A stretch of DNA of 53,413 bases, from the NCBI GenBank assembly GCA_903885605.1, contig CAISJD010000076.1:1-53413 (forward strand). The letters run 5' to 3'. Numbering within the stretch: position 1 is the stretch's first letter; each line of letters starts with the position of its first letter. Made by a program: the position numbers and the translations under genes. Source of the stretch: an uncultured Chthonomonas sp. GTDB taxonomy: Bacteria; Armatimonadota; Chthonomonadetes; Chthonomonadales; CAJBBX01. Shown here piece by piece: positions 4,891-53,249 of the stretch. Under the pieces are notes generated by a model. That model was not told the DNA's origin. It saw nothing but the letters and a program-made list of their open reading frames with translations, and did not search any database.

Positions 4891-5089
4891 CCCCCCGTAA
4901 GCCGCCCTCCGCACTGCCGCCTGGAGCGACGCCGCCCGCCCCACGGCTTGACCCCATTGACCCCGTTGGCGGCGTTGAGGACGGCTGTGTGCGGCGGCGG
5001 TGTGCGCCGGATCGTGGCCGACGGTCCGTTAGCCCTTCCTGCGTGGTCTGAAGCAGGAGCCTGCGGGCTGCGCGGCGTATCTTGGACCC

Positions 5090-7234: not shown

Positions 7235-7245
7235 CGCGCGCCCGC

Positions 7246-33379: not shown

Positions 33380-35218
33380 TCAGCGGTAACGGCTGGCCTG
33401 CGCCTCAAAGAGGACCGCGTAGGCGCCGTTCCGAGCCAGCAACTCGTCGTGGGAGCCCTCCTCCACCACGGCTCCGTCCTCCAGCACGACGATGTGGTCG
33501 GCCATGCGCACTGTGGAGAAGCGGTGGCTGACGATCAGCGCCGCGCGGCCGTCCAGCATGGCGCGGAAGCTCTCGTGGAACGCCGCCTCGGCCAGCGGGT
33601 CCATGGCGCTGGTGGGCTCGTCCAGCACCGTCAGGTCGGCCTGCCGCACGATGGCCCGGGCGAGGGCCACGCGCTGCCACTGGCCGCCGCTCAGCTCGGC
33701 GCCGTCGTCCAGTGCCCGGCCCAGGTGGGTGTCGTAGCGCTCGGCCAGCCCCTCGGCGATGCCGTCCAGCCCGGCGAGCCGCCCGGCCTCAAGGATGCGA
33801 GGGTCATCGGCTCGCAGGTCGATGCATCCCATGCGGATGTTCTCGCGCAAGGTCGCCTGGTAGCGCGTGGGCTCCTGCACCACCACGGCCAGGCGGCGGC
33901 GCAGGGCGTCGGGGTCCATCGCCCGCAGGTCCACCCCGTCCATCGTCACAGCGCCCTCATCGGGATCGTAGAGGCGGGCGAGCAGCTTCACCACGGTGCT
34001 CTTCCCCGCCCCGTTGGCGCCCACCAGCGCGACGACCTTGCCGGCGGGCAGCCGCAGCGTCAGGTCACGCAGGACGGGCGCCTCGAAGCCCGGATATCGG
34101 AAGGTCACGCCTCGCAGCTCCATGCCCTGGGCCATCGGTTGCGGCGGCTCTACGGGCCTCTCAGGCGCCCGCACGGTGGGCTCCATTGCGAGGAACTCGA
34201 AGACGTTCCGCAGGAAGAGGCTGTCGCCGTAGAGGCCTCCGATGCCGGCGAGCAGGCTCTGGAGGAATGCCTGCCCGCGCTGGAACGCCTGGTAGAAGAG
34301 GACGAGGTCGCCCAGCGATATCTCGCCGCTGACGGCGCGGCGCGCCACGACGGCGAAGGCGCCCAGCATGACCGCCGCCCCCGCGACCTGGGCCAGCGTC
34401 TCGCCCGTGGCCCGAGCGCGGACGATGGCCAGCTTCTCGCCCTTCAGGGTTCGGCGCGCCTCCATCCACCAGGCCGCCGCCGCGGGCCCGAGGCCGTTGA
34501 GCCGCAACTCCTTGGCATGCACCTCTCCGCAGAGCAGCCAATTCCAGTACGAAGCCCTCCGCTCGAGCTTGGTTCGGCCGCGCGCCCACCGGTAGAGGCG
34601 CTTGGAGTACGCAGCGCGCAAGGCCATGCCGGGGACGGCCACCACGATGATGACGACGCCGACCGCCCAGTGGAACGCCAGCACCATGCCGGCGATGCCG
34701 ACCAGCGAGACCGAGTTCTGCAGCACCTGGGCGACGCCGTTCACGATGCCCAGAGGCCGGAACGGAGCCTCGGACTGCGCGCGACGCAGCGCATCGTTTG
34801 CGTCGCTGTTCTCGTAGAATGCCAGGTCCATGCGGATCGACTGCCGGTTCATGGCGTCCAGCATGGCATCGCTGACGGCGATGCCCTGCGCCTCGGAGGC
34901 CAGGGCCGAGAGCGCCGAAGCCGCGGCCGATGCGGCAAGCACACCTCCCCAGGCAAGCAGCAGGGGCGCCAGACGCGCCATGGCCGCGTCCTTGTCCGGC
35001 TGGGCGATGCCCTGGGTCACGGCATCGACGACGAGCTTCAGGAGCCATAGCGCCGCCAGGGGCAGCACGCCCTGGGCCAGCGTGAGGCCGGCGGTGCAGA
35101 TCGCCAGCGCCGGTGAGCTCCGCCACACGAGCCCCATGGCCCGCACGATCCCGGCGGCGCGCTCCCTGATCGTGGCGGACGGCCCCTCCGCGGGCGGCAT
35201 CGGGCGTGCGTCAGCCAC
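33380..35218 (-). CDS. ABC exporter, fused membrane and ATPase domains
   Basis: A 612-residue half-transporter. The transmembrane domain spans about 30-330. The nucleotide-binding domain has Walker A GANGAGKST, signature LSGGQWQRVALARA, Walker B LTVLDEPTSAMDP and the H-loop SHRFS. The start is GTG 35218, overlapping the upstream gene's TGA by 8 bp, so translation is coupled to the nucleotidyltransferase-like gene (35211-36482). An ATG at 35200 would also serve. Its 3' end is convergent with, and 11 bp from, the FtsX permease. Substrate is unknown; coupling to a PF14907-type protein is reminiscent of peptide-export operons. Confidence 0.9.
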   Translation of the reverse strand: MADARPMPPAEGPSATIRERAAGIVRAMGLVWRSSPALAICTAGLTLAQGVLPLAALWLLKLVVDAVTQGIAQPDKDAAMARLAPLLLAWGGVLAASAAASALSALASEAQGIAVSDAMLDAMNRQSIRMDLAFYENSDANDALRRAQSEAPFRPLGIVNGVAQVLQNSVSLVGIAGMVLAFHWAVGVVIIVVAVPGMALRAAYSKRLYRWARGRTKLERRASYWNWLLCGEVHAKELRLNGLGPAAAAWWMEARRTLKGEKLAIVRARATGETLAQVAGAAVMLGAFAVVARRAVSGEISLGDLVLFYQAFQRGQAFLQSLLAGIGGLYGDSLFLRNVFEFLAMEPTVRAPERPVEPPQPMAQGMELRGVTFRYPGFEAPVLRDLTLRLPAGKVVALVGANGAGKSTVVKLLARLYDPDEGAVTMDGVDLRAMDPDALRRRLAVVVQEPTRYQATLRENIRMGCIDLRADDPRILEAGRLAGLDGIAEGLAERYDTHLGRALDDGAELSGGQWQRVALARAIVRQADLTVLDEPTSAMDPLAEAAFHESFRAMLDGRAALIVSHRFSTVRMADHIVVLEDGAVVEEGSHDELLARNGAYAVLFEAQASRYR

Positions 35219-36482
35219 CGGCCAACCAGTTCATGAGCCCCTCCACCCGGGCCTGCCGGGCCTGCAGCCTGAGCGTGCGGCGGTCGCGCAGGGCGAGCCG
35301 CGCCAGGTCGCCGCCGTGCCGCCGCACCACATCACGCCAGCGCCGTGCGTAGCCGGCCGCCCCCTGCCCCGGATAGAGGCGATCCATGGTGGCCCGATCC
35401 GGGAAGAGCGCGGAGGCCGCTCGGCGCACCCCGGCATGGCCGGCCACAGACGCCGCCTGCGGGCTCACCCGCGGGGCCGTCTGCGGCTGCCCGGCCCGGC
35501 CCAGAAGCAGTCCGACGGCCAGGGCCAACCGAACGCGGGCCTCCTCGGCCGGTAGCGACGGCGCCAGGCCGGCGAGCGACGCCTCCGGCACGGGCGTTCC
35601 GAGCAGATCACGGCAGAGCGCAACCGCCAGCCACGTCTGCCGGGAGCCGCGCCAGGAGCGCGCCTCGGAGGCCACACGCTGCCAGTCGAGCCCAACTCCT
35701 GCGCCGCGAACCATGGCGTCGATATCGCAGAGGCCGCGGAGCGTGGCCACGTTGCCGTCCTCATAGGGGTGGATCGCAGTGTGGATGATGGTCTGCTCCG
35801 GGCACATCAGGCGCATGTGCAGCCCGCCGGGACGCCCGTCGACGGCGGCACCGAGGATCTCCTGCGTGGACGGCCTGAACGGGCCATGGATGCGGACCAG
35901 CCTCCAGTGGAGCTCCAGCACCAGCCGCGGATCGGCAGCCTTGTAGACGATCTCGTTGTCCAGCTCCAGCCGCCCATGGATCGGCCTGTGCGGCTGCCAG
36001 CCGCACTCCAGCATGGCCTCGTGGCAGGCCTCCACGCTCTCCTGCGCGACGATCAGGTCCACGTCAGTCATCGACCGGGCGCCGGGGTCACCGTAGACGT
36101 CCCAGGCCATCCTGAAGCCCTTCAGCGCCACCGGGTCGGCGCCGCACCGGCGCAGCCGGGGCAGGACCCGGCCAAGCAGGTGGGCCCTGGCAAGGTTCGC
36201 AGCGGCGTTCGTCGCGTGGGCGGCGCGCAGCGCCGCCGCGGCATCGGCGGGCGCACGGGACAGGTCGCCCGAGCGAGCAGTCCGAGCATACAGCAGGCCG
36301 GCCACTCCGTGCCGGCGCGCTTGCGCTACCGTGGATCGCCACGCCTCAACGTCGGAGGCTTCGGCAGGCAACGCCTGCCGCGCCAGCGCCGCCAGCAGGA
36401 GGCGGTGCCGGAGGCGCTCCGACAGGGCCTCCTCGTCGTCAAACTCCCCGGCTAAGCCGCCAGGGTCGCGGTCACTCAGCAT
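35211..36482 (-). CDS. Nucleotidyltransferase-like protein (NTP_transf_5, PF14907 type)
   Basis: The 423-residue protein shows the family signature VALKGFRMAW (LKG at 120-122), then GDPGARSMTDVDLIV with the metal-binding-type Asp140/Asp142 pair, LVLELHWRL and a helical C-terminus. Such proteins often sit in RiPP (especially lasso and PqqD-associated) loci, where their function is undefined. A second member is at 49045-50271 in the RiPP locus of this window. Start: ATG 36482 is taken; an in-frame GTG at 36512 would add ten residues and cross the inverted repeat at 36489-36506. Neither has a clear ribosome site. It forms an operon with the downstream ABC exporter. Confidence 0.82.
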   Translation of the reverse strand: MLSDRDPGGLAGEFDDEEALSERLRHRLLLAALARQALPAEASDVEAWRSTVAQARRHGVAGLLYARTARSGDLSRAPADAAAALRAAHATNAAANLARAHLLGRVLPRLRRCGADPVALKGFRMAWDVYGDPGARSMTDVDLIVAQESVEACHEAMLECGWQPHRPIHGRLELDNEIVYKAADPRLVLELHWRLVRIHGPFRPSTQEILGAAVDGRPGGLHMRLMCPEQTIIHTAIHPYEDGNVATLRGLCDIDAMVRGAGVGLDWQRVASEARSWRGSRQTWLAVALCRDLLGTPVPEASLAGLAPSLPAEEARVRLALAVGLLLGRAGQPQTAPRVSPQAASVAGHAGVRRAASALFPDRATMDRLYPGQGAAGYARRWRDVVRRHGGDLARLALRDRRTLRLQARQARVEGLMNWLAGG

Positions 36483-36488
36483 GGCTAT

Positions 36489-36506
36489 CAGTATGCACCC
36501 ATACTG
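36489..36506. promoter_or_regulatory. Inverted repeat in the divergent promoter region upstream of phoU
   Basis: CAGTATG-CACC-CATACTG gives perfect 7-bp arms around four bases. It lies between the divergently transcribed nucleotidyltransferase-like gene and phoU, at a plausible operator position for a dimeric repressor. No regulator gene is adjacent. Confidence 0.4.
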
Positions 36507-36562
36507 GTGCACCGGCGAACGCGGGTATCCTACCGACTATCCGCGGCCCATGGGAGGTCAGA

Positions 36563-37240
36563 ATGACGAACACGCGAACCCGGTTTGAGAGCGGCTTGCA
36601 GCAGCTACGCGACAGGATCCTCGACATGGGGCTCCGTGCCGACAGCATGCTCGCCGACGCGATCCGCGCCGCCGTGGAGCAGGATGCCGACCTCGCCACG
36701 CAGGTCGTCCGAAGCGACCGCGAGGTCGACCGCGCCGACATCGACATAGAGACGGACTGCATGCTGCTCATCGCCCTGGAGGCTCCGGTCGCCAAGGACA
36801 TGCGGCTGATCGGCTCGTCGATGAAGATCATCAGCGATCTGGAGCGCATCGCAGACTACGCCGTCGATATCGCCAAGATCGGCCGGCGCCTGGCCCGCGA
36901 GATGCGCTACCAGCCCCTCGTCGACCTCGCCAAGCTGGGCGGTCGTGCGCGAGCCATGCTGCAGGAGGCCCTGAAGGCCTTCGTCAACGGCGACGTGGCT
37001 CTGGCGGCTCGGGTCGTGGAGATGGACAACGAAGTGGACGCGCTCTTCCATGAGCAGCGAGACTACCTTCTGGAGCTTCTGGACCGCGAGACGGGCCACG
37101 GTTACGCGGGCGGCAATCTTCTGCTGGCTGTCAAGTACCTGGAGCGCATCGGCGACCACGCCACCAACATCGCCGAGCGGATCGCCTATATCGAGACGGG
37201 CAACGCCGCCGGGACTGCCGAGCCGCGCACCGGCGAATAG
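36563..37240 (+). CDS. phoU: PhoU-family phosphate regulator
   Basis: A 225-residue cytoplasmic protein of two PhoU three-helix bundles, with metal-binding-type acidic motifs DREVDRADIDIE (about 53-64) and DNEVDALFHEQ (about 154-164), and the helical blocks MRLIGSSMKIISDLERIADYAVDIA and LLLAVKYLERIGDHATNIAERI abbreviated here to DLERIADYA and YLERIGDHATNIAE. PhoU damps the PhoR/PhoB response and modulates Pst phosphate uptake. No pst or phoBR genes are in the window, so it may act with genes elsewhere. GGAGG four bases before ATG supports the start. Confidence 0.95.
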   Translation: MTNTRTRFESGLQQLRDRILDMGLRADSMLADAIRAAVEQDADLATQVVRSDREVDRADIDIETDCMLLIALEAPVAKDMRLIGSSMKIISDLERIADYAVDIAKIGRRLAREMRYQPLVDLAKLGGRARAMLQEALKAFVNGDVALAARVVEMDNEVDALFHEQRDYLLELLDRETGHGYAGGNLLLAVKYLERIGDHATNIAERIAYIETGNAAGTAEPRTGE

Positions 37241-37249
37241 AGGAGCCCG

Positions 37250-39037
37250 TCAGCCCAGCGGAGCCGCCTCCGCTGCGGCGCTGTCGGCGTTCGCCTCGTC
37301 GTCGGCGAACTGCAGCCCATGGAGCCGCGCGTAGAGCCCCTTCCCTTGCAGCAGGTCGTGGTGGGTGCCGCACTCCACGACGCGGCCGGACTCCAGCACG
37401 ACGATGCGGTCGGCTCGGCGCACGGTGGCCAGCCGATGGGCGATGACGAAGCAGGTACGCCCACGCATCAGCCTGCCCATGGCCTCTTGCACCAGCCGCT
37501 CCGACTCGGAATCCTGCGCGGAGGTGGCCTCGTCGAGGATCAGCACCCTCGGGTCGCGCAGGATGGCCCGGGCGATGGCGAGCCGCTGCTTCTGCCCAAC
37601 CGATAGGCGCGTCCCGCGCTCCCCCACCTCGGTCTCGTACCCCTGCGGCATGGCCATGATGAACTCGTGCGCGTTGGCGGCTCGGGCAGCCTCCTCGACA
37701 TCGGCTTCGGTTGCGCCGGACTTGCCGAAGGCGATGTTCGCGCGGACCGTGGTGGCGAAGAGGAAGGGCTCCTGCGGCACCACCGCGATGAGCTCCCGCA
37801 AGGCCCATGGCGGCACATCACGCACATCCACCCCGTCGATCAGCAGCGCCCCCTCGGTGACGTCGTAGAGGCGCGGCAGAAGCGAGACAAGCGTGGTCTT
37901 GCCGGAACCGCTGGGCCCCACCAGCGCCGCCACCTCGCCCGCCGTGACGGCAAGCGAGACATCATGAAGGACCTCGGGCTCTGCAACATCATAGCGAAAG
38001 CCCACGCCGCGGAACTCCACTCCCGACGCGCAGGGCGGCGCCAGGCGGGGACGGTCTGGCTGAGGCTCGGAGGGCGCATCGAGGAACTCGAACACACGGT
38101 CCGCTGCGCCGATCGCCGCCGCCACCTGCGAGAAGAGGTTCACGAAGGAGCTGGCCGGCCCGAACAGCATTTCGAGCACGTTCAGCGTCATCACCACGTT
38201 GCCCGCTGTGATCTCGCCGCGAATCGCCATGCGGGCGCCGACGACCATGGTCAGCATCATGCCGACCGTGGCGATGATGCCGGTGACCGAGCCGTTCGCG
38301 GCCCCGAGCGCGGCCATGCGGACGCGAGCCCCGATGAGCCGGTGCACGGAGGCCATGAAGCGCTCGCCCTCGTCCCCGGCCCGGCCGAAGGCGCGCACCT
38401 CGCGCGCTCCGCTGACGCTCTCCTGCAGGACATTCTGCACGCGCTCGGTCTCGTCGCGCGTCTGCCGGCCCGCGGTGCGCAATGCCGGTCCGAAGCGGCT
38501 CAGCGCCACGGCGAAGAGAATGGGGACCGGCAGGCCGATGGCCGCCAGCTTCGGGCTCTGCACTACCATGATGGCTGCGGCCGCAGTCGCCGTCAGCAGG
38601 TTGGTGAGGATGTCGACCAGTGTCGATGAATAGAGGCCCTGCAGCGCATCGACGTCGCTCTGGACTACGGACATGACGCCGCCCGTGCGACGGCGGTCTA
38701 ACGCCGCCATGGGGAGCCTGTGCACATGGTCGAATAGGTCTCGGCGCATGTCGGCCGCAGCCCGCTCGCCCGCCAGCGCGAAGAGCCACGACCTGCCGAT
38801 CGCGGCGAGCGAACCCAGCACCGAAGTGCCCAGCGCCACCATCGTCAACAGGTTGAGCCAGTGCAGCCGTTGCTCCGCCGTGCCGTGCTGCGGCCACATC
38901 ACCTTGTCGATTAAGTACTTGGTGAAGAACGGCCAGACGAAGCCTGAGGCGGTGACGATCAGTGCGAAGGCCAGCGCGGCCAACTGAAGCGCCCAATGGG
39001 CGGCCATGTAGCGCAGGGCTCGGCGCAGTGTCAGCAT
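37250..39037 (-). CDS. MsbA/BmrA-like ABC exporter, fused membrane and ATPase domains
   Basis: The 595-residue half-transporter has six predicted helices in the first 320 residues. The ATPase shows Walker A GPSGSGKTT, Q-loop VVPQEPFLF, a variant signature LSVGQKQRLAIARA (V replaces the usual G), Walker B VLILDEATSAQDSESE and H-loop AHRLATV. The family exports lipids, drugs or peptides as a homodimer or heterodimer. Its 3' end is convergent with phoU (9 bp apart), and its start faces the NTF2-like gene across 173 bp. It could pair with the 33380-35218 exporter, since the two differ in signature quality, but each looks complete enough for a homodimer. Confidence 0.92.
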   Translation of the reverse strand: MLTLRRALRYMAAHWALQLAALAFALIVTASGFVWPFFTKYLIDKVMWPQHGTAEQRLHWLNLLTMVALGTSVLGSLAAIGRSWLFALAGERAAADMRRDLFDHVHRLPMAALDRRRTGGVMSVVQSDVDALQGLYSSTLVDILTNLLTATAAAAIMVVQSPKLAAIGLPVPILFAVALSRFGPALRTAGRQTRDETERVQNVLQESVSGAREVRAFGRAGDEGERFMASVHRLIGARVRMAALGAANGSVTGIIATVGMMLTMVVGARMAIRGEITAGNVVMTLNVLEMLFGPASSFVNLFSQVAAAIGAADRVFEFLDAPSEPQPDRPRLAPPCASGVEFRGVGFRYDVAEPEVLHDVSLAVTAGEVAALVGPSGSGKTTLVSLLPRLYDVTEGALLIDGVDVRDVPPWALRELIAVVPQEPFLFATTVRANIAFGKSGATEADVEEAARAANAHEFIMAMPQGYETEVGERGTRLSVGQKQRLAIARAILRDPRVLILDEATSAQDSESERLVQEAMGRLMRGRTCFVIAHRLATVRRADRIVVLESGRVVECGTHHDLLQGKGLYARLHGLQFADDEANADSAAAEAAPLG

Positions 39038-43835: not shown

Positions 43836-45155
43836 TCACTCCGCCCAGAGGCTAACCCGGTAGACGCCTGTGCTATCCGGCGTAAAGTGCGGCACTGTGA
43901 ACTCGGCATTATTCTTCAGCACGACTGAATTGGCTACAATGGAGCCAGTGAACCCAATATTGTTATCGACTTCAACAAAACCTGTCTCCGTACCTGTCCC
44001 GGTCTCGTTGTAGCAGTAGATGCCGAGGTCGCCGGAGACGTTGTTCTTGCCGGTCATGCCGCCCGCCGTACCGATGTACACGCGGCAGTACCGATCCAGG
44101 TCCCCCGTGACCGTCTGCGTGATCGTCACACCGTTCTTGGTCGTCCACCCCCCTGCGGCTCCGCTGGGTCCGAACCAGATCGTGATCGGGCCGGCTGTGT
44201 TGTCTAGATTGACCGAGCCCATGTTCACGAAACTGAGCTCCTCCAGATAGTAATTGGCGCCGCCCGACTTTCCGTAGAACGTCACGCTCTCGCCGTTGCG
44301 AAGGGTCAGTTCCGGCCCATAGGTCCCCGCCACACCGTTGACCTTGATCATGGTGTTGTCATTATGGTGTTCCAGATAGGCAAGACCGCCTGGTGCGGTC
44401 GCGCCGAAGCTCGGATAGAGGCGCAGAGCCACGGCGCTGACCGTCGGCCACAGCAGCGGATCGGTGAACGGCTGTCGGGTGTATGTGTTGCCCAGACCTG
44501 CGACTACCGTGGCGGCGGGACCGTTCAGCTCAAGGCCATTGGTGATCGTGTTGTTGTTCTGCATCAGCACCAGACCGTTGGTGCCCACTTTCCCGTTGAC
44601 TATGAGGTTGTTCTGGATCGTAAGCGCAGACACAGCGTAGATGGCGTAGTCGCCGGGGAACGTCAGTGCCGTCTCGCCGTCGATGCTCGCAGGCGCTCTG
44701 GCGATGGTGGCTGTCAGGCGCGCGCTTCGCACCACCCCGTTCGACCACCCGTAGGCCACAATCGTGCATCTGGCGCCAGGCCTGCCCAGCGTGCCGGCGA
44801 AGTAGCCCTGCTGCGAGCCCGACGGCACTCGGATCAGTTGGTACAGGCCGTTTCGTACGCCCTCGGCGAACTGAGAGCAGGTGGGGGCGATGCCGTCCAT
44901 GTACTGGTAGAGCGGAGGCAAGCCGGCATAGTCGGCGGCGCCGAAAGTAAGTCGGCTCATGTAGGCGTTCGCGCCGGCCTCAGCGAGCATCAGCGCCCGC
45001 TCGTAGTCGCGCTCCGTCTTGGACAACCCCAACTGCGTCACGACCTGCAGCCCTGCGACGCTGATGAGCATGCAGAGGCAGAGGCTCATCGCCACGGCCA
45101 CCGCGAGGGCCATTCCCCGACACCGACGCACGCTACGAGCCCGGTTCTGTCTCAC
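43836..45155 (-). CDS. PilX-N-type pseudopilin with beta-solenoid body (paralogue 2)
   Basis: A 439-residue protein beginning at GTG 45155 with GGGAGG seven bases upstream. It has a basic N-terminus, a hydrophobic helix with the GMALAVAVAMSLCLCMLI core, and the PilX-N block DYERALMLAEAGANAYMSRLTFGA, near-identical in part to paralogue 1 (AEAGANAY-SRLTFGA). The body repeats the YAIYAVSALTIQNN / NNNTITNG / GPITIWFGPSG pattern and ends YRVSLWAE. An inner-membrane or pilus-tip adhesin-type role is possible. The two genes are tandem, same strand, 600 bp apart, and look like a diverged duplication. Confidence 0.82.
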   Translation of the reverse strand: MRQNRARSVRRCRGMALAVAVAMSLCLCMLISVAGLQVVTQLGLSKTERDYERALMLAEAGANAYMSRLTFGAADYAGLPPLYQYMDGIAPTCSQFAEGVRNGLYQLIRVPSGSQQGYFAGTLGRPGARCTIVAYGWSNGVVRSARLTATIARAPASIDGETALTFPGDYAIYAVSALTIQNNLIVNGKVGTNGLVLMQNNNTITNGLELNGPAATVVAGLGNTYTRQPFTDPLLWPTVSAVALRLYPSFGATAPGGLAYLEHHNDNTMIKVNGVAGTYGPELTLRNGESVTFYGKSGGANYYLEELSFVNMGSVNLDNTAGPITIWFGPSGAAGGWTTKNGVTITQTVTGDLDRYCRVYIGTAGGMTGKNNVSGDLGIYCYNETGTGTETGFVEVDNNIGFTGSIVANSVVLKNNAEFTVPHFTPDSTGVYRVSLWAE

Positions 45156-45343
45156 GACCGACCCTCCCGGCAGGAGCCACTACGCGGCGACCAACGTCTG
45201 CGCGCCACTCCTACTGCAGTCTCGAGAGGGCCGGTTGCGGCCGCGTGATACAAGACCCGGGGCGCGGCCACGGCGGAAGCGCCTCGACAGGAAGAACCCA
45301 GGATCCGTCGGGGCCGGCCGCGACAGATCCTGATGTCCTGCCG

Positions 45344-46627
45344 TTACCCGGCGAAATAGCCCAGTAGCGTCGCCTCCGCCGTCCAGAGCTCCTCAAAGAG
45401 GTCACGGATCTGGTCCAGGGACAGCGTGGCGCGTGTCAACGGGTCCATGGCGCAGGCATGGAATGCCGCCTCTTTGTCCTTGTCCAGGAAGGCACGCACG
45501 GCGAGCTCCTGCACAGCCACGTTCGAGGCGTTCAGGTGCGCCAGTTGCGCCGGGAGCGGCCCCGGGCAAGTGGCGTGGACCCCGGCGCCGTCCACCAGGC
45601 ACGGGACCTCAACGCAACAGCCGTCGGGCAAGTTCGGGATAAGGCCCGTGTTCATGACGTTGCCGTTGAACTCATACGGCCCGCCGGAGACGACGGCCTC
45701 GATGATGCGGCTGGCATACTCGTTGCTGGGCGTCAGGGCCGGGATCTCCACCTCGTCGGGCGCCTCCAGCCACTGCCTGTCACCCCCGCCCGTGTCGGCC
45801 ACGACCCGCTCGCTGAGCTGGTAGTGGGCCATCAGGTCGGCGTTGCGGCGGAAGTAGGGGTGGTACTCCGAGCAGTGTGTGCTGCTCTCGGTGACGAAGT
45901 AGCCGAAGTGCCGGAACATCTCGAACCGGATGCGGTCCCTGGCCACCGTGTCCGGGTCGTCCAGCTTGGCACGGAGGGCCGGGTAGAGGTCCTCGCCGTT
46001 GCGCGTCAACTTCAGGAACCACGCCTGATGGTTGATGCCCGCCACATGGTAGCGCACCTCGTCGCAGGGCACGCCGAGGTAGCGGCTCAGCTCGCCGGCC
46101 GTGCCCTGCACGCTGTGGCAGAGCCCCACGTTGCGTATGGAACTGGCGGCCGAGTGCGCCCAGGTAAGCATGCACATGGGGTTGGTGTAGTTCAGCATGA
46201 GGGCGCGCGGGCAGAGATCCTCCATGTCGCGGCAGACGCCCACCTGGATCGGCGCCGTGCGAAGGAATCGAAACACGCCGCCGACGCCGATCGTATCTGC
46301 GATACTCTGGCTCAGGCCATAGCGGTTTGGGATATTCGTCTCGACGTTGGCCGGGAAGCCGTGGTAAGCGGGTCCGCCGGCAGAGATGCTGGTGATAACG
46401 AAGTCCGCGCCGGCCAGCGCGGCCCGGCGATCAAGGTGCCCCTCAACGGTGGCCGGCAGGCCGTGCGTCTCGATCACGCGCTCCACATACCGCTTGGCGT
46501 TGGTTAGCTTGCGCTCGTCAATATCGCACAAGGCGATGCAGGCGGCGCGCAGGCTGGGCTGCGAGAGGATGTCCCTGGAAAGCGTGGCGCCGAAGCCGCT
46601 GCCCGCCCCGATGATCGCGATTCGCAT
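45344..46627 (-). CDS. Glycoside hydrolase family 4 (alpha-galactosidase/alpha-glucosidase type)
   Basis: The 427-residue cytoplasmic enzyme belongs to GH4, which uses NAD+ and a divalent metal to cleave glycosides by a redox-elimination mechanism. Visible are the NAD loop IGAGSGFGATL (residues 6-16), LNYTNPMCM, the metal-ligand region GLCHSVQG with Cys-His, AGINHQAWFL and SEYHPYFRR. The GINHQAW and CHS blocks point to the MelA/AglA-type alpha-galactosidases or alpha-glucuronidases, but the sugar cannot be fixed. ATG 46627 starts exactly at the Rossmann strand, as expected. No sugar transporter is adjacent. It is divergent from the RiPP locus. Confidence 0.92.
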   Translation of the reverse strand: MRIAIIGAGSGFGATLSRDILSQPSLRAACIALCDIDERKLTNAKRYVERVIETHGLPATVEGHLDRRAALAGADFVITSISAGGPAYHGFPANVETNIPNRYGLSQSIADTIGVGGVFRFLRTAPIQVGVCRDMEDLCPRALMLNYTNPMCMLTWAHSAASSIRNVGLCHSVQGTAGELSRYLGVPCDEVRYHVAGINHQAWFLKLTRNGEDLYPALRAKLDDPDTVARDRIRFEMFRHFGYFVTESSTHCSEYHPYFRRNADLMAHYQLSERVVADTGGGDRQWLEAPDEVEIPALTPSNEYASRIIEAVVSGGPYEFNGNVMNTGLIPNLPDGCCVEVPCLVDGAGVHATCPGPLPAQLAHLNASNVAVQELAVRAFLDKDKEAAFHACAMDPLTRATLSLDQIRDLFEELWTAEATLLGYFAG

Positions 46628-46824
46628 CGTATACCCCCGGTCGTGTGATGCCGGCAGATTACCAGAGCAGACCAACCGGAGACCAGGTCCGCCTCCAAGT
46701 GACGCATCCGACGACCGATTTGCGGCCCATTCCAGCGAACGGGAACGCTTCGCCCCTGCGTGTCGTCTGAAGGGGTAGCGTTGCGCAGTCCATGCAACTC
46801 AGAGCCGCTGCTTGACGAGTGGCC

Positions 46825-46853
46825 TTGACGTAGCCGGGGTGGAACGCTATAAT
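46825..46853 (+). promoter_or_regulatory. Sigma-70-type promoter of the RiPP precursor
   Basis: TTGACG at 46825-46830 and a perfect TATAAT at 46848-46853 are separated by exactly 17 bp. This is the best consensus promoter in the window. Transcription would begin near 46860, leaving a leader of about 95 nt before the precursor ATG. Confidence 0.75.
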
Positions 46854-46876
46854 GACGGCTAGGTATACGTCATCCG

Positions 46877-46930
46877 GCGCTCATGCACGCCGTCCGCCGT
46901 GTGGCGGGGCGTGGACGCGACCGTGAGCGC
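46877..46930 (+). promoter_or_regulatory. Structured 5' leader of the RiPP transcript
   Basis: An outer stem GCGCTCATG (46877-46885) pairs with CGTGAGCGC (46922-46930) over nine positions with one U-G wobble. It encloses an inner hairpin CACGC/GCGTG plus CCGCC/GGCGG (46886-46913). The ribosome site begins 10 nt downstream, so the structure could stabilise the mRNA or control translation. Confidence 0.5.
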
Positions 46931-46955
46931 TCGCACTTCAGGGGGAATCTTGAAC

Positions 46956-47102
46956 ATGAATGCACAGACCACCCAGACGAAGCTTCCTTACGAGAAGCCG
47001 TCGGCAACGCTGCTTGAGCTCAAGCCCGAAGAGCGCCTGATGGCCTGCGGCAAGCTCAAAGGTGAGCCCGGCAGCTGCGGCTTCACTCCGAAGCTCAGCT
47101 GA
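46956..47102 (+). CDS. Putative RiPP precursor peptide, 48 residues, two core-region cysteines
   Basis: The peptide has a leader-like half with P11-Y12-E-K14-P15 and LLELKPEERL, followed by a compact C-terminal half with Cys31 and Cys41 (ACGKLKGEPGS, CGFTPKLS). A Y-x-K/x-P motif is typical of leaders read by PqqD-like recognition domains. ATG 46956 has GGGGGA nine bases upstream; a frame extension to 46899 lacks a ribosome site and would start inside the leader hairpin. It is the first gene after a strong promoter and is followed by PqqD, radical SAM, peptidase and nucleotidyltransferase-like genes. The modification (for example a sactionine or other thioether, or a C-C crosslink) cannot be deduced. 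Confidence 0.78.
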   Translation: MNAQTTQTKLPYEKPSATLLELKPEERLMACGKLKGEPGSCGFTPKLS

Positions 47103-47124
47103 TTACCACAAACTAATCGATCCG

Positions 47125-47160
47125 CAACCGCGTGCGCCACAGTCGTGGGGTGCGCGGTTG
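47125..47160 (+). terminator. Hairpin between precursor and maturation genes (attenuator candidate)
   Basis: CAACCGCG/CGCGGTTG (8 bp) with an inner CCAC/GTGG pair forms a stem-loop 22 bp after the precursor stop and just before the PqqD start. Only a short U-rich run (TTGTTAT) follows, so partial read-through is expected, which would give more precursor than enzyme. Confidence 0.55.
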
Positions 47161-47174
47161 TTATCGCATACCTT

Positions 47175-47456
47175 ATGATCCGCAAAGACGGTTTCGTAGT
47201 TCGCGACGTCGGCGGCTCCGCGGTCATCGTGCCGACCGGGGCGCGCGTCCTTGACCTGAACGGCCTGGTCGTCCTCAACGACTCAGGCCGGCTGGTTTGG
47301 GATGCCCTCTCCGCTGAACGCTCTGAGGACGAACTCGTTCAGTGCCTGACAGACAGGTACGATGTCTCGCCGGACCAGGCCCGCGCTGACGTCAGGGAAC
47401 TGCTGGAGCGGTTCGCGGCTCTGGGAATCATCCAATATGCAGGGCAGCCGATCTGA
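47175..47456 (+). CDS. PqqD-family RiPP recognition protein
   Basis: A 93-residue PqqD/RRE-type winged helix: three beta strands at the N-terminus (FVVRDVGGSAVIVP, RVLDLN), then VVLNDSGRLVWDAL and SEDELVQCLTDRYDVSPDQARADVRELLERFAALGII shortened here to VSPDQARADVRELLERF. The family binds precursor leaders and delivers them to the radical SAM enzyme. ATG 47175 fits the family start but has no ribosome site. A GTG at 47145 in the same frame lies inside the hairpin. The 3' end overlaps the radical SAM gene by 20 bp. Confidence 0.9.
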   Translation: MIRKDGFVVRDVGGSAVIVPTGARVLDLNGLVVLNDSGRLVWDALSAERSEDELVQCLTDRYDVSPDQARADVRELLERFAALGIIQYAGQPI

Positions 47457-48528
47457 CTGTGCCGTCGTCGAGCGCTCGATGCTGGAGCGCGCCACCGCAA
47501 ACCGTCAACCCGTCTCAGGCACCTTCGAGCTAACAGCCCGCTGCAACCTCGCATGCGGCATGTGCTACATCCGCAAACCGGCGAACGACCGCTACGAGCG
47601 CTCCCACGAACTCTCCGCGGCGCAGTGGGTCGATGTTACCCAGCAAGCCGTGGCCGCCGGCATGGTCTTCCTCACCCTGACCGGCGGCGAGATCCTGATC
47701 CGCAAGGACTTCTTCGACCTCTACGAGCCCATGACGCAGATGGGCCTCGTCATCACGCTCTTCACGAACGCGACCGCGATCACGCCTGCGGTGGCGAAGC
47801 GCCTGGCGCAAAGCCCGCCGTCGCGCGTCGAGATCTCGCTGTATGGCGCCTCCGAGGCCGCCTATGAGCGCGTCACCGGCACGTCCAACGCCTACGACAA
47901 GTGCCTGCGCGGCATCCGGCTACTGGCGGAAGCGGGCGTCAACGTCGTCGTGAAGTCGACGCTGACGAAGTACAACGCGCACGAGCTGGACCTGATGAAG
48001 CGAATGGCGGCCGAGTGGGGCGTCCCCTTCTTCGCGGCTTCGCTGCTGACGCAGAGGCGCGACGACGACCTATCGCAGATCCAGGACTTCCGCCGCCAGG
48101 CACGGGAGGCCATCGACCTGGAGGAGGCCGACGCCGCCACCTCGGCCGAGATCCGCGCCGCTCTCGCGGCCCCTCCGCCCGCGGCGGACGCCGACCCGTT
48201 CTACTGCTCGGCGGGCAAGTCCTCGTTCACCATCGGCCCCTTCGGCCAGATGAGCGCCTGCATCGACCTGCCGCTCCCGGGCGCGCCAGTGGCCGAGATC
48301 GGGTTTGCCGAGGCCTGGAGGCGTGTCGGCGAGTTCGTGGGCTCCGTGCCTGTGAACACCTCCTGCTCCTCCTGCGCCCTACGCAGCATATGCCCCAGCT
48401 GCCCGGCATGGTCCTACGGAGAGAACCGTACGCTGAACCAGCCCGTGAAGTACCTCTGCGACCTGGCCGCCGAGCGGAAGCGCAGGTTCGGCCGGGCCGA
48501 GCCGGACGTCCAGGCTGCCGGCGGGTAG
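47437..48528 (+). CDS. Radical SAM/SPASM peptide-modifying enzyme
   Basis: The 363-residue enzyme has the radical SAM cluster motif C36-x3-C40-x2-C43 in TARCNLACGMCYIR, followed by TLTGGEILIRKDF (the GGE SAM-binding motif). A C-terminal SPASM-type cysteine region runs YCSAGKSSFTIGPFG, CIDL, CSSCALRSICPSCPAWS and the final C in KYLCDLA. SPASM enzymes such as PqqE, AlbA and the ranthipeptide synthases use extra 4Fe-4S clusters to build C-C or thioether links in peptides. ATG 47437 overlaps pqqD by 20 bp; ATG 47479 is an alternative that keeps all motifs. It acts in the cytoplasm, most likely on the 48-residue precursor. Confidence 0.92.
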   Translation: MQGSRSDCAVVERSMLERATANRQPVSGTFELTARCNLACGMCYIRKPANDRYERSHELSAAQWVDVTQQAVAAGMVFLTLTGGEILIRKDFFDLYEPMTQMGLVITLFTNATAITPAVAKRLAQSPPSRVEISLYGASEAAYERVTGTSNAYDKCLRGIRLLAEAGVNVVVKSTLTKYNAHELDLMKRMAAEWGVPFFAASLLTQRRDDDLSQIQDFRRQAREAIDLEEADAATSAEIRAALAAPPPAADADPFYCSAGKSSFTIGPFGQMSACIDLPLPGAPVAEIGFAEAWRRVGEFVGSVPVNTSCSSCALRSICPSCPAWSYGENRTLNQPVKYLCDLAAERKRRFGRAEPDVQAAGG

Positions 48529-48535
48529 GCCTTCA

Positions 48536-49048
48536 GTGACGGCCCACGAACCCAGGGCGACCCGCGAGGTCTCCACACGCCACCTTGCGCCTCTGCTGGA
48601 GGAGGCGCTGCATGCCGGCCGCACGGTCCGCATGACGGTCACGGGCGGAAGCATGGTTCCATTCATCGGTCACGGCGAGACGGTCGAGCTGATCCCGCCG
48701 GCGGCGCATCGCCTGTCGGCGGGCGACGTCGTCCTTGCTCGCATGCCGGCCTCTGACCTCGTCCTGCACCGCGTCGCCCGCATCGCCGGCCACAGCCTGT
48801 TCCTGCAGGGCGACGCCCAGTCCGTCGCCGTTGGTCCCATCAGCCGCGACGCCGTGCTGGCGGTGGCGTCAGGCGTTTTCCGGGGCAATCGGCGCGTGGC
48901 TCTGGACGCGGGCCCCATGCGCGTGGCGGGCCTTGTCTGGATGCGCGGCGCACCGATCCGTCCATTCGCCATCCGGGCGGTACGGTCGGGCAAGGCCCTG
49001 ATCGGCCTGCATCGACGACGGCCGCCTGCCGGCGCGCCGGCAGCGTGA
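48536..49048 (+). CDS. Soluble S26/S24-like Ser-His peptidase, probable leader peptidase
   Basis: A 170-residue protein starting at GTG 48536, 7 bp after the radical SAM stop. It has the signal-peptidase Ser motif VTGGSMVPFI (Ser39), the GDVV strand (63-66) and LVLHRVARIAG (His78) where bacterial type I signal peptidases carry the Lys base. Ser-His pairs occur in the SipW/Sec11/archaeal branch. There is no membrane helix, unlike true signal peptidases, which suggests a cytoplasmic or peripheral peptidase that could trim the modified peptide. Such S26-like proteins recur in PqqD-associated RiPP loci. The end overlaps the next gene by 4 bp. Confidence 0.8.
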   Translation: MTAHEPRATREVSTRHLAPLLEEALHAGRTVRMTVTGGSMVPFIGHGETVELIPPAAHRLSAGDVVLARMPASDLVLHRVARIAGHSLFLQGDAQSVAVGPISRDAVLAVASGVFRGNRRVALDAGPMRVAGLVWMRGAPIRPFAIRAVRSGKALIGLHRRRPPAGAPAA

Positions 49049-50271
49049 CCACCTCCGTCGCACCCGCCACTCGCACGGACATGGCCGACGCCGCGGCTGC
49101 CGTCTGCGCCTGGCTATGGCGCGGCGGCGTCTGGGATAGCTCGGCGCTCCAGTGCGATCACGACTGGCATGAGTTGGCCGACCTCCTGGACGACCACGCC
49201 CTCGCGCCCCTTCTCCACCTTGCCGCGCCGTATGCGCGCCCCAACCCACTCCCGCCCGCTATGGTTGAGCCCCTGGGACGCGCCTATCTGGGAGCCCTTG
49301 CCCGTAGCCGGCGGCTCGTGGGACAAGCGGCCAAGATCGCCGCAGCAGCAGGCCAGGCCGGCATCGACCTGGTGGTGCTCAAGGGCGTTGCGGCCCTGCT
49401 CTGGCTCTATGACGACCCGGGCATCCGAGTGGTCAGCGATCTGGACCTGATGATCCGCCCCGAGCGCCTGCGCGATATGCACTCCATGATGCTGGGCCTC
49501 GGCTACGAGATGAACTCCCACACCTCGTTGGCCGACGCCGAAGCGGGCGCTAACGGGTATGCGGTGAACTACACACGCGCCGACTGCGCCGATGTGGACG
49601 TCCACGTGCAGCTACCCGGCCGGGCCGGCCGCTGTGCGGATTCGCGAGCCGTGTGGGAAGACGCGCCGCCCGCGCCCGGCGGCCTGGCGGCCCTCCGGCT
49701 CAACGCGCGCCACTCCCTGCTCACCTCGGCATCGCACTTTGCCATGCACACGCGGGAGCTACCGCCAGCCAGCCTGAAGGACCTCGTTGATATCGGCCTT
49801 CTCGTCGGCCGTCATCTGCCGCCCGGCGAACTCGCCCGGGCCGTGGCGGAGGCCGAAGCCTGGGGCGTTGCTGACGACCTGCGCCTGGTGGATGAGGCCG
49901 TGTGGACCGTGTTCGGTCTTTCCGTGCTACCCGACGCGCCCGTCGCGCATACCGTGCGGGACCGCTCGTCCTACGTCTTCAGCCGCCGCGACCACAGGTC
50001 ACCGGCCCTGCAGGCCGAAGCGGTGCCCGATATCTACTGGAAGCGGCTCAGCGGCATCGGCAAGGTAGGAGGTTTGGCCGCAAGAGTCGAATACCTCTGG
50101 AGGCTGGCGTTTCCCGCCGCGCCCAACATGCGCCGACGGTACGGTCGGGCGCCGGGGCAATCGCTTGCCTGGCCCTACGTCCACCACTTAGGACGCATCG
50201 TGGCCCGGCTTGCTGCGGGTCTGGCCGCCCGGGCATTGTCACGGGCCCGGCCGAGGCGCAAAGCGCCGTAA
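49045..50271 (+). CDS. Nucleotidyltransferase-like protein (PF14907 type) of the RiPP locus
   Basis: This 408-residue protein starts at GTG 49045 within GTGA, overlapping the peptidase stop. The family blocks are LVVLKGVAALLWLY (LKG 112-114), GIRVVSDLDLMI (Asp132/Asp134), CADVDVHVQLPG and helical HFAMHTRELPPASLKDLVDIGLL. It is a diverged paralogue of 35211-36482. PF14907 members accompany many RiPP loci, but their reaction is not established; nucleotidyl transfer to the peptide or a partner is plausible. It is the last gene clearly belonging to the locus. Confidence 0.85.
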   Translation: MTTSVAPATRTDMADAAAAVCAWLWRGGVWDSSALQCDHDWHELADLLDDHALAPLLHLAAPYARPNPLPPAMVEPLGRAYLGALARSRRLVGQAAKIAAAAGQAGIDLVVLKGVAALLWLYDDPGIRVVSDLDLMIRPERLRDMHSMMLGLGYEMNSHTSLADAEAGANGYAVNYTRADCADVDVHVQLPGRAGRCADSRAVWEDAPPAPGGLAALRLNARHSLLTSASHFAMHTRELPPASLKDLVDIGLLVGRHLPPGELARAVAEAEAWGVADDLRLVDEAVWTVFGLSVLPDAPVAHTVRDRSSYVFSRRDHRSPALQAEAVPDIYWKRLSGIGKVGGLAARVEYLWRLAFPAAPNMRRRYGRAPGQSLAWPYVHHLGRIVARLAAGLAARALSRARPRRKAP

Positions 50272-50288
50272 CGAACAGAGGAGGGCTC

Positions 50289-52064
50289 ATGATGGCACCC
50301 TTGCAGATGCTGGCGCCGGCGTTGCTCCTGCTGGCGCTCTGCGCGACGGCCGCTGCCGCACCGAACGCCCCAGACCAGAACCCCGGTAGCCCCTGGCCGG
50401 CGACGGACGCACTGGGCCGCGACGTGCCCACCGCCCCCGAGAGCCGCGAAGTGCGGCCCGGCAAGTACGTCGGCATCTTCTACTTCCTCTGGCACGATAA
50501 CGTCGGCGGGAAGAGCCCGCATGAGGACGGCCCGTATGACATCGCCCGGATCCTGGACAAGGAGCCCGGCGCGCTGAGCAACCCAAAGTCGCCCTACTGG
50601 GGCCCCATCGGGATGTACCACTACTGGGGCAAGCCCGTGGCCGGCTACTACCAGAGCGACGACGAATGGGTCCTGCGCCGCCATGCGCACCAACTGGCCG
50701 AGGCAGGGGTCGACACGCTGATCTTCGACACCACCAACGCGGCGACCTACAAGCCCGTCTACATGAAACTCTGCGAGGTCTTCATGCAGGTGCAGCGCGA
50801 AGGCGGCCGAACGCCGAAGATCTGCTTCATGGTGAACACGCAGGCGGGCAAGACGGCACGCACCATCTATGAGGACCTCTACAAGCCCGGGGCGTACAAG
50901 GAGCTCTGGTTCCAGTGGCGCGGCAAGCCGCTGCTGCTCTGCGACCCAGCCGACGCCGACCCGGAGCTGCGCGCCTTCTTCACGCTCCGCCGAGCCCACT
51001 GGCCCTTCGAGATGCGCAACACCAAGGAGGCGTGGCACTGGGAGGCTACCTACCCGCAACCGTACGGCTTCGCGGAGGACCCCGGCAAAGCGGAGCAGGT
51101 CAACGTCTCCGTGGCCCAGAACCTGCGGGCAACGGACGGCCAGGTGACCAACATGAGCAACGGCGATGCGCGCGGCCGCAGCTTCCACGAGGGCAAGATG
51201 GACCGATCTCCCGGCTCCGTGAACCTGGGGCTCAACTTCCAGGAGCAGTGGAAGCGAGCGTTCGAGCTGGATCCGCCCTTCGTGATGATCACGGGATGGA
51301 ACGAGTGGATCGCCGGGCGTTGGGGCTCGCTGGACGGGCCGCTGGTCTTCGTCGACCAGTTCGACCAGCAGTACAGCCGCGACATTGAGCCGGCCGACTG
51401 CGGCCACCATGACAACTACTATTACCAGATGGCTGCCAACATCCGCCGATGGAAGGGCGCGGCGCCGCTTCCCACGGCGAGCGGCCCCAAGTCGATCAGG
51501 ATCGGTGCATCCTTCGATCAGTGGTCGGGCGTGCGGCCCCTCTTTTCCAGCCCGGAAGGTGACACCAGGCCCCGGGACCATGCGGGAGCCGGAGGCACAC
51601 ACTACCGAAGCGCGACCGGACGCAACGACATCATCGAGGCGCGCGTGGCCCGCGACAAGACCAACGTCTACTTCCTGGCTCGCACGGCAGACCCGCTGAC
51701 GCCGCGGACGGATCCCAACTGGATGTGGCTACTCCTTCGCACAGGCGGCTCCGGTCCCGCGTGGGAGGGCTACCAGTACATCATCAACCGGACCATCGAC
51801 GCCGACGGCAGCACTTGGCTCGAACGGTGCAAGGGCGGCTGGAACTGGGAGAAGGTGGCCAAGCTGAAGCTCCACGTCTCGGACGACCGGCTGCAGGTCG
51901 CCGTGCCGCGGAAAAGCCTGAACCTGCGGCCGGGGATCACGGCCCTGACGCTCGATTTCAAGTGGATCGACAACGCGCAGAAGCCCGGCGACATCCTCGA
52001 CACGTACGTGAGTGGGGATGCGGCGCCGTTGGGCCGGTTCCGGTACCGCTACGCAGCGCCGTAG
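50289..52064 (+). CDS. Exported GH71/GH99-like glycosidase with C-terminal CBM9-type domain
   Basis: A 591-residue protein with signal peptide MMAPLQMLAPALLLLALCA (cleavage near AAA-AP). The (beta/alpha)8 region (about 55-410) has VGIFYFLWHD, HYWGKPVAGYYQSDDEWVLRRHAHQLAEAGVDTLIFD (seen as GYYQSDDEWVLRRH...GVDTLIFD) and FVMITGWNEWIAGRW. These are features of the GH71/GH99-like/DUF5010 clan of endo-acting glycosidases. The C-terminal 150 residues (about 430-591) fit a CBM9-like sandwich. GAGGAGGG seven bases before ATG 50289 gives a strong ribosome site. Only 17 bp separates it from the RiPP genes, so read-through is possible, but a functional link is unproven. Confidence 0.85.
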   Translation: MMAPLQMLAPALLLLALCATAAAAPNAPDQNPGSPWPATDALGRDVPTAPESREVRPGKYVGIFYFLWHDNVGGKSPHEDGPYDIARILDKEPGALSNPKSPYWGPIGMYHYWGKPVAGYYQSDDEWVLRRHAHQLAEAGVDTLIFDTTNAATYKPVYMKLCEVFMQVQREGGRTPKICFMVNTQAGKTARTIYEDLYKPGAYKELWFQWRGKPLLLCDPADADPELRAFFTLRRAHWPFEMRNTKEAWHWEATYPQPYGFAEDPGKAEQVNVSVAQNLRATDGQVTNMSNGDARGRSFHEGKMDRSPGSVNLGLNFQEQWKRAFELDPPFVMITGWNEWIAGRWGSLDGPLVFVDQFDQQYSRDIEPADCGHHDNYYYQMAANIRRWKGAAPLPTASGPKSIRIGASFDQWSGVRPLFSSPEGDTRPRDHAGAGGTHYRSATGRNDIIEARVARDKTNVYFLARTADPLTPRTDPNWMWLLLRTGGSGPAWEGYQYIINRTIDADGSTWLERCKGGWNWEKVAKLKLHVSDDRLQVAVPRKSLNLRPGITALTLDFKWIDNAQKPGDILDTYVSGDAAPLGRFRYRYAAP

Positions 52065-52136
52065 GCCGTTGGCCGAGGCTCACCGAGAGCCGCCCCGGCC
52101 GAAGACGTTTCAACTCAACGATGAATGGAATGCGCA

Positions 52137-53249
52137 ATGAGCAAAGGTGTCTTCTACTATACCGATGAGTTTCAGGCCTACGATATGGGTCCACAGCACC
52201 CGCTGAAGCCGGCACGCTTGCGCCGAACGCACGACCTGCTTGCGGCCTACGGTGCGCTGGCCCATGTGGAAGTCGAGGCGCCCAGGCCATGCCCGATCGA
52301 CGACCTGATGCCGACCCACAGCGCCGAGTTCATCGAGACCGTGGACCGCCTCAGCGCGGGCGAGCACGTCCCGTTCCCCTTCCGCTACGGATTCGGCCAG
52401 GGCGACAACCCCGTCTTCCCGGAGATGTACGAGGCCTCCCTGCTCTATACCGGCGCCTCGCTCCAAGCCGCCGAGGACCTGGTCAGCGGTCGGGCGCGGG
52501 CGGCCATGAACATCTCGGGCGGACTGCACCACGCCCACCGTGACCGGGCCGCGGGCTTCTGCGTCTTCAACGACTGCGCCGTGGCGATCCACCGGCTGCT
52601 CCGCCGCTTCAGCCGGGTCGCCTACCTCGATATCGACGTGCACCACGGCGATGGCGTGCAGGAGGCGTTCTACGACGACCCGCGCGTCCTCACCGTCTCC
52701 ATCCACGAGACCGGTACGACCCTCTTCCCCGGCACCGGGTTCCCGCGTGAGATCGGCGTCTCAGACGGCATCGGGTACAGCGTGAACCTGCCCATGTACC
52801 CCTACACCGATGACGACATCTGGCTCTCCACCTGGCGGCAGGGCGGACTGCCTGTGATGCGATCCTTCAACCCGGACGCGGTGGTCATCGACGTGGGTAC
52901 CGACCCGCACTACCTGGACCCGCTGGCACGCATATGCCTCACCGCGCAGGGCTGGACGGAGGCCGTCCACGACGTCATGGGCCTCAACGTGCCGGTCCTG
53001 GCGCTGGGCGGCGGCGGGTACAACCCGACAACGGTGCCGCGAATGTGGGCGTTGGTCTTCTCGGAGATATTCGGCGTGCCGTTGGCCAACGAGGTACCCG
53101 AGGCCTTCGCCGACCGCGACCGGATACCCACGTTGCGCGACGACGAGCCCGCCCCCATCGCGCCGCATGCGCTGGAGCAGGCTCGCGCCTATTCGGAGCA
53201 GACGCTGGCGGACCTACGGAAGATGGTCTTCGGCTACCACGGGCTGTAG
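52137..53249 (+). CDS. AcuC/histone deacetylase-family protein
   Basis: The 370-residue protein begins SKGVFYYTDEF, the AcuC-type N-terminus, and has HPLKPARL, the active-site GLHHAHRD pair, YLDIDVHHGDGVQ (Asp/His zinc ligands), DVGTDPHYLDPLARI (third Asp ligand) and LGGGGYN with the catalytic-type Tyr. Acetoin utilisation protein AcuC deacetylates and activates acetyl-CoA synthetase in Bacillus; here the target is unknown and no acetyl-CoA synthetase is adjacent. The ATG at 52125 is in frame and would add four residues; 52137 is preferred from the family start. Confidence 0.92.
   Translation: MSKGVFYYTDEFQAYDMGPQHPLKPARLRRTHDLLAAYGALAHVEVEAPRPCPIDDLMPTHSAEFIETVDRLSAGEHVPFPFRYGFGQGDNPVFPEMYEASLLYTGASLQAAEDLVSGRARAAMNISGGLHHAHRDRAAGFCVFNDCAVAIHRLLRRFSRVAYLDIDVHHGDGVQEAFYDDPRVLTVSIHETGTTLFPGTGFPREIGVSDGIGYSVNLPMYPYTDDDIWLSTWRQGGLPVMRSFNPDAVVIDVGTDPHYLDPLARICLTAQGWTEAVHDVMGLNVPVLALGGGGYNPTTVPRMWALVFSEIFGVPLANEVPEAFADRDRIPTLRDDEPAPIAPHALEQARAYSEQTLADLRKMVFGYHGL

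Follow-up and report, generated by a model that had tools for sequence, protein, structure and literature searches.

A probable RiPP operon from Armatimonadota with a radical SAM/SPASM enzyme and a phosphopeptide-type enzyme set

Introduction

The stretch of DNA analyzed here (the window, 53,413 nucleotides) is contig C76 of the 5.6 Mb genome (G000) of an uncultured Chthonomonas sp. of the phylum Armatimonadota. It carries an operon encoding a 48-residue precursor peptide, a PqqD-family leader-binding protein, a radical S-adenosylmethionine (SAM) enzyme with a SPASM cysteine pattern, a signal-peptidase-like serine protease, and a PF14907 nucleotidyltransferase. The operon very probably directs the biosynthesis of a ribosomally synthesized and post-translationally modified peptide (RiPP), and the description that fits it best is that of a phosphopeptide system of the paeninodin and Linear Polyphosphorylated Peptide (LPP) type, in a variant form that includes a radical SAM enzyme. 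What is new is that a radical SAM/SPASM enzyme is joined to an LPP-type core enzyme set, with a different precursor family. An earlier note on this DNA had proposed a RiPP locus that is possibly a new class. The first part of this proposal is upheld by the conserved precursor and the enzyme set, but "new class" is too strong, because relatives of the locus contain a kinase (encoded in trans here), because the terminal serine of the precursor is conserved, and because LPP loci share the same enzyme types.

LPP were reported from Bacillota by Popov et al. (Nat Commun 2026; PMC13381572). Their leader-binding protein and protease act as a pair to cleave a YxxP leader, and mutants in the Ser-His-Asp residues of the protease LppS (S29, H68, D93) are dead; [Y/W]xxP is the motif bound by both lasso and LPP leader-binding proteins, and the LPP kinase phosphorylates a serine, Ser3 of the core (PMC13381572). 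In the pseudomycoidin pathway, the kinase PsmK phosphorylates the C-terminal serine, and the appearance of a hexose on the phosphate depends on PsmN, a protein with a nucleotidyltransferase annotation; the His-Lys-Asp-Asp (H-K-D-D) set is required in lasso kinases (PMC9266682).

Results

The 48-residue open reading frame (ORF) is a genuine peptide gene, beyond chance, because its ratio of nonsynonymous to synonymous substitution rates (dN/dS) against two congeners (L003 and L004) is only 0.07-0.14 and because homologous precursors adjoin homologous enzymes in other genera, as found when the precursor and the gene order were searched across Armatimonadota. The Y-x-K-P motif and the two cysteines described in the earlier note are present as Y12-E-K-P15, Cys31, and Cys41; the motif has the [Y/W]xxP form. 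That note had also made its reading depend on a conserved small ORF at the same position in homologous loci, and one is found there, with the motif kept. A profile built from ten precursors (alignment A1) and searched across Armatimonadota genomes yielded a family of 23 members within this phylum. All 23 have a first cysteine at Y+19 or Y+20 and a second one 6-15 residues downstream of it, and 22 of them have a lysine at Y+21; the terminal residue is serine in 22 as well. This serine was hardly used to find the precursors, since most of those found with the profile were matched only over earlier columns. The cores are strongly variable, the family is patchily distributed, and in several genomes there are two or three precursors; this genome has no second one of the same family at E 0.05. 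The window precursor is covered by no Pfam or NCBIfam model, and its profile found no relative of solved structure. As GC-rich DNA often contains short ORFs, the peptide could in principle be fortuitous, with the enzymes acting on some other substrate. However, this explanation is hardly credible and is already refuted by the purifying selection, the 23 homologues, the fixed motif spacing, and the pairing with the radical SAM enzyme across genera described below.

Families were assigned by scans against Pfam and NCBIfam, which around the operon covered the genes at 43836-53249. The five consecutive same-strand genes of the earlier note were all recovered on the forward strand, and each member of its proposed maturation set was confirmed (Table 1). 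The radical SAM enzyme has a CX3CX2C motif and seven conserved SPASM-type cysteines (C257, C275, C310/313/319/322, and C341), several of which are missing from row L099 of the alignment; the SPASM label denotes this cysteine pattern, as there is no Pfam SPASM match. Its profile matches the structures of SkfB and PqqE, with SkfB as the best solved match, while the closest solved relatives of the PqqD profile are the lasso B1 proteins TbiB1, TfuB1, and 9x90. The protease scores 19.8 bits against PF00717, under the cut-off of 23.3, and a profile search of the PDB with it retrieved SEC11 signal peptidases (E-value 1e-6). Orthologues of the PF14907 gene are present in the clusters of relatives. AlphaFold models from three-row alignments reached predicted local distance difference test (pLDDT) scores of 37 for the protease and 40 for the radical SAM enzyme and are not usable. 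Among the NCBIfam families matched by the radical SAM enzyme are those of mycofactocin and PqqE enzymes, with every match far under cut-off, which could be taken to indicate a redox-cofactor pathway like that of pyrroloquinoline quinone (PQQ) or mycofactocin. We regard this as very improbable, because variable cores and two or three precursors per genome are unlike cofactor precursors, and because of the patchy distribution.

Table 1. Features of the operon and its precursor in window coordinates.
Feature	Coordinates	Strand	Observation
Sigma-70-like promoter TTGACG-N17-TATAAT	46825..46853	+	11/12 consensus match
5' untranslated region ahead of precursor	46860..46955	+	conserved between congeners
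Precursor peptide, 48 aa, MNAQTTQTKLPYEKPSATLLELKPEERLMACGKLKGEPGSCGFTPKLS	46956..47102	+	dN/dS 0.07-0.14; family of 23
Leader recognition motif Y12-E-K-P15	46989..47000	+	Y12 and P15 invariant in A1
Cys31-Gly-Lys33, predicted radical SAM target region	47046..47054	+	Cys/Lys register conserved
Cys41, second conserved cysteine	47076..47078	+	second Cys in 23/23 precursors
Ser48, C-terminal, predicted phosphorylation site	47097..47099	+	terminal Ser in 22/23 precursors
RNA hairpin between precursor and pqqD	47119..47165	+	z -4.1 to -5.5, no T-tract
PqqD-family leader-binding protein (RiPP recognition element, RRE)	47175..47456	+	PF05402 60.3 bits, cut-off 23.4
Radical SAM enzyme with SPASM cysteine pattern	47437..48528	+	PF04055 72.3 bits
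SEC11/SipW-type signal-peptidase-like serine protease, predicted leader peptidase	48536..49048	+	Ser39, His78, Asp93 invariant
PF14907 (NTP_transf_5) nucleotidyltransferase, predicted phosphoserine modifier	49045..50271	+	111 bits

Relatives were located through radical SAM homologues within the phylum, which pointed to clusters in G006, G009, and G011 (~50% identity) and, more distantly, in G069, G070, G050, G063, and G038, and peptides such as YAKPSAMFVELKPEERLMSCNKTPSDIACDDPTGLGFDAS sit near their enzymes. The order precursor, PqqD, radical SAM enzyme, kinase, protease, nucleotidyltransferase is found in G006, G009, and G011, and the same enzyme order in G069 and G070, with a sulfotransferase inserted in the latter. 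Some precursors found with the profile are remote from the enzyme cluster (G011:C116, G006:C28, G009:C152, G070:C186/C239, and G050:C21), and others come from further genera (G261, G112, G102, and G259). The precursor occurs in all nine genera that possess this radical SAM clade, versus 2 of the 147 that lack it (Fisher p 4.6e-13), and the kinase in 10 of the 11 precursor genera (p 6.6e-9), in tests that ignore the kinship of genera and in which most radical SAM rows come from loci that seeded the profile. As to accessory genes, the sulfotransferase is a tailoring gene of a single relative's cluster (L039, G070:C72, 1311-2174), and in G069 and G038 a GNAT acetyltransferase domain is fused to the signal-peptidase-like protease (L038, 6956-7918; L048, 8133-9239).

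The kinase of the relatives (G006, G009, G011, G069, G070, and G050) is encoded by a gene of ~290-316 codons between those of the radical SAM enzyme and the protease. It gives weak matches to the HprK-related families TIGR04355 and TIGR04249, and retains His146, Lys167 (within GKST), Asp185, and Asp186. The operon in the window lacks it, since the protease gene begins 7 bases past the radical SAM stop codon. A single orthologue with an intact H-K-D-D set is instead found on another contig of this genome (G000:C3:9764-10648), and both congeners likewise hold the kinase away from the operon, so that it is missing from the operon in 3/3 genomes of the genus. In the kinase and radical SAM trees, the genus falls inside the same 8-genome clade (100/100 and 100/99, respectively). 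The kinase gene on C3 has a 4-base overlap with a WecG/TagA/CpsF glycosyltransferase gene, as it also does in G001 (L059, 9764-11427); this pair lies downstream of a PMT_2 mannosyltransferase-like gene. Together, the kinase of the relatives and the conserved C-terminal serine point to the phosphorylation chemistry of paeninodin, pseudomycoidin, and LPP.

The association of serine and kinase is restricted to H-K-D-D kinases of this family. A universal rule that such a kinase implies a C-terminal serine was rejected, as kinases with D-E or E-E residues neighbor candidate precursors that are mostly without the serine (L042, L102, L105, and L112), with L111 as an exception; the contrast between the two kinase types was noticed post hoc. 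In a sister precursor group (L042, L111, L112, and L102), the leaders are of the W-x-x-P type (WIKPEVREVILEADTDVL...) and the HprK-like proteins carry D-E or E-E; these proteins possibly act on another phospho-acceptor or are inactive as kinases.

The promoter ahead of the precursor is indeed the best in the window, as the earlier note had stated: among sigma-70-like sites over the whole window, TTGACG-17-TATAAT is followed by a next best match of 9/12. Its hexamers are retained in congener L003, and L004 has TTGACT-16-TATAAT. Between promoter and start codon, the identity to the two congeners is 85-91%, as against 46-61% for the DNA 5' of the promoter; Rfam gave no match at gathering score. 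The hairpin at 47119-47165 is present in the window and both congeners with the same stem and a G-U/G-C exchange. It is possibly a partial terminator or a transcript-processing element, and could determine how much peptide is made relative to enzyme.

The neighboring genes (GH4, a weak GH99-like one, and one of the histone deacetylase family) do not appear to belong to the operon. Within the window, 8-14 kb upstream of the operon, another PF14907 nucleotidyltransferase gene (35211-36512, minus strand, 167.8 bits) lies alongside two ABC exporter genes. It overlaps one of these (33380-35218, minus strand), and the other, which is MsbA-like (37250-39037, minus strand), is separated from it by a PhoU-like ORF. 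The genes at 33380-39037 resemble the LppN and LppD parts of LPP loci, and no precursor was seen adjoining them. Elsewhere in the genome, contig C82 (L127, G000:C82:38000-52000) carries a lasso enzyme set (5047-7844, minus strand) of a PqqD-type B1 protein, a PF13471 B2 peptidase, and an Asn-synthase-like cyclase, with no kinase or nucleotidyltransferase in the set and no precursor nearby in a search for the YxxP motif. A plasmid or viral origin of the window was considered and rejected, with 0 matches in plasmid and viral collections.

Discussion

What is observed is the set of genes, the conservation of the precursor, the intactness of the catalytic residues, and the co-occurrence; from these we infer the following chemical steps and their order. 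The PqqD-type protein would first bind the Y-x-K-P leader and the radical SAM/SPASM enzyme would then modify the region of Cys31, Lys33, and Cys41, most likely by forming a thioether or another cross-link. The HprK-like kinase, supplied in trans, would phosphorylate Ser48, and the PF14907 protein would add to this phosphate in a manner comparable to the presumed hexose addition by PsmN in pseudomycoidin. Finally, the Ser-His-Asp signal-peptidase-like protease, aided by PqqD, would cut off the leader, at a site that can be guessed from LPP to be close to Arg27-Leu28. That the product is both modified by the radical SAM enzyme and phosphorylated at its C-terminus is the model we favor, with some reservation.

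Several observations weigh against this model. The kinase lies outside the operon and could serve the lasso peptide of the genome or a glycan, and some distant candidate precursors beside divergent kinases have no C-terminal serine. The stretch 46825-53249 contains no exporter, whereas LPP clusters include an MsbA-like one, and the predicted phosphorylation site is the C-terminal serine rather than Ser3 of the core, as in LPP. A plain peptide with two thioethers, similar to sactipeptides or ranthipeptides, would need a SPASM enzyme and two conserved cysteines, and both are in place. Phosphorylation would then have been lost in the genus, consistent with the operon lacking a kinase in its three genomes; the kinase would serve another pathway, for which the separate lasso locus offers room, and the PF14907 protein would have another role. 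Yet the genus keeps both Ser48 and PF14907, and its trans-encoded kinase retains H-K-D-D and groups with the in-cluster kinases in one clade. We therefore consider this alternative unlikely, though it merits attention.

A sub-variant of the favored model concerns the target of the radical SAM enzyme. Lys is fixed at Y+21 whereas the first cysteine moves between Y+19 and Y+20, which suggests that the enzyme may act on Lys33 to form a lysine cross-link or a Lys-Cys link, with Cys31 and Cys41 joined in a disulfide. However, the lysine may merely set the register for PqqD or the protease, and no partner residue for it is pointed to, so we view this version, too, as rather unlikely.

It is conceivable, though we would put it forward only tentatively, that these loci form a distinct Armatimonadota class of RiPPs, in which one peptide, from a precursor family of its own (YxxP, EE, C/K, C, and terminal Ser), receives a cross-link from the radical SAM enzyme as well as a phosphate or phosphosugar at its C-terminus, with a kinase in trans being tolerated. 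Radical SAM chemistry and HprK/PF14907 phosphate chemistry, known apart, are linked here via one leader-binding protein and one type of protease. The findings suggest that relatives of the Bacillota phosphopeptide machinery also exist in Armatimonadota, and that the kinase is able to leave its cluster. With a family of 23 precursor sequences for the PqqD, HprK-like, and radical SAM set, the chemistry is directly testable.

With respect to known systems, a literature search for this combination of enzymes turned up only lasso and LPP work. The SynChlorMet cassette (TIGR04248-TIGR04251), compared via NCBIfam family names, also combines PqqD, an HprK-related protein (ScmC, a link taken from shared family matches), and radical SAM/SPASM proteins. 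However, scores against these families fall far short of the curated thresholds (16.5 of 100 for PqqD, 30 of 125 for the kinase, and 74-87 of 400 for radical SAM), and the locus has one radical SAM gene where the cassette names two (ScmE and ScmF). Sactipeptides and ranthipeptides (SkfB, CteB, and PapB) share the SPASM radical SAM enzyme and the cysteine-containing core, but lack phosphorylation-type enzymes of the kind found here and have a different precursor family; the thioether in our peptide is a prediction.

The locus was assigned to neither lasso peptides nor LPP, because, in each case, features that define the group were checked for and found to be missing. A lasso product, which the earlier note had thought unlikely, is ruled out, as neither an Asn-synthetase-like cyclase nor a B2 peptidase is among the scanned genes. 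Paeninodin and pseudomycoidin have the C-terminal serine, an H-K-D-D kinase, a PF14907-type nucleotidyltransferase, and a leader-binding protein in common with our system, but where paeninodin-type lasso loci have a macrolactam cyclase and a cysteine-type leader peptidase, this one has a radical SAM enzyme and a signal-peptidase-like protease. In LPP loci, the YxxP precursor is likewise accompanied by a separate leader-binding protein, the archaeal-type signal-peptidase-like leader peptidase has a Ser-His-Asp set matched here by S39/H78/D93 (with an identical Ser-His spacing of 39 and predicted cleavage), the nucleotidyltransferase LppN has its counterpart in PF14907, and a cyclase is found in neither. 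By contrast, the HprK-like kinase is within the LPP cluster but on another contig here, although it is in-cluster in the relatives of the locus, and a radical SAM enzyme is mentioned nowhere in the text of the LPP paper (PMC13381572). The LPP precursor motif YxxPxVLxHQxIxFETxxS has no conserved Cys or Lys, and our precursor fits only its YxxP and the Glu at Y+14. Finally, LPP come from Bacillota, whereas the present locus belongs to Armatimonadota.

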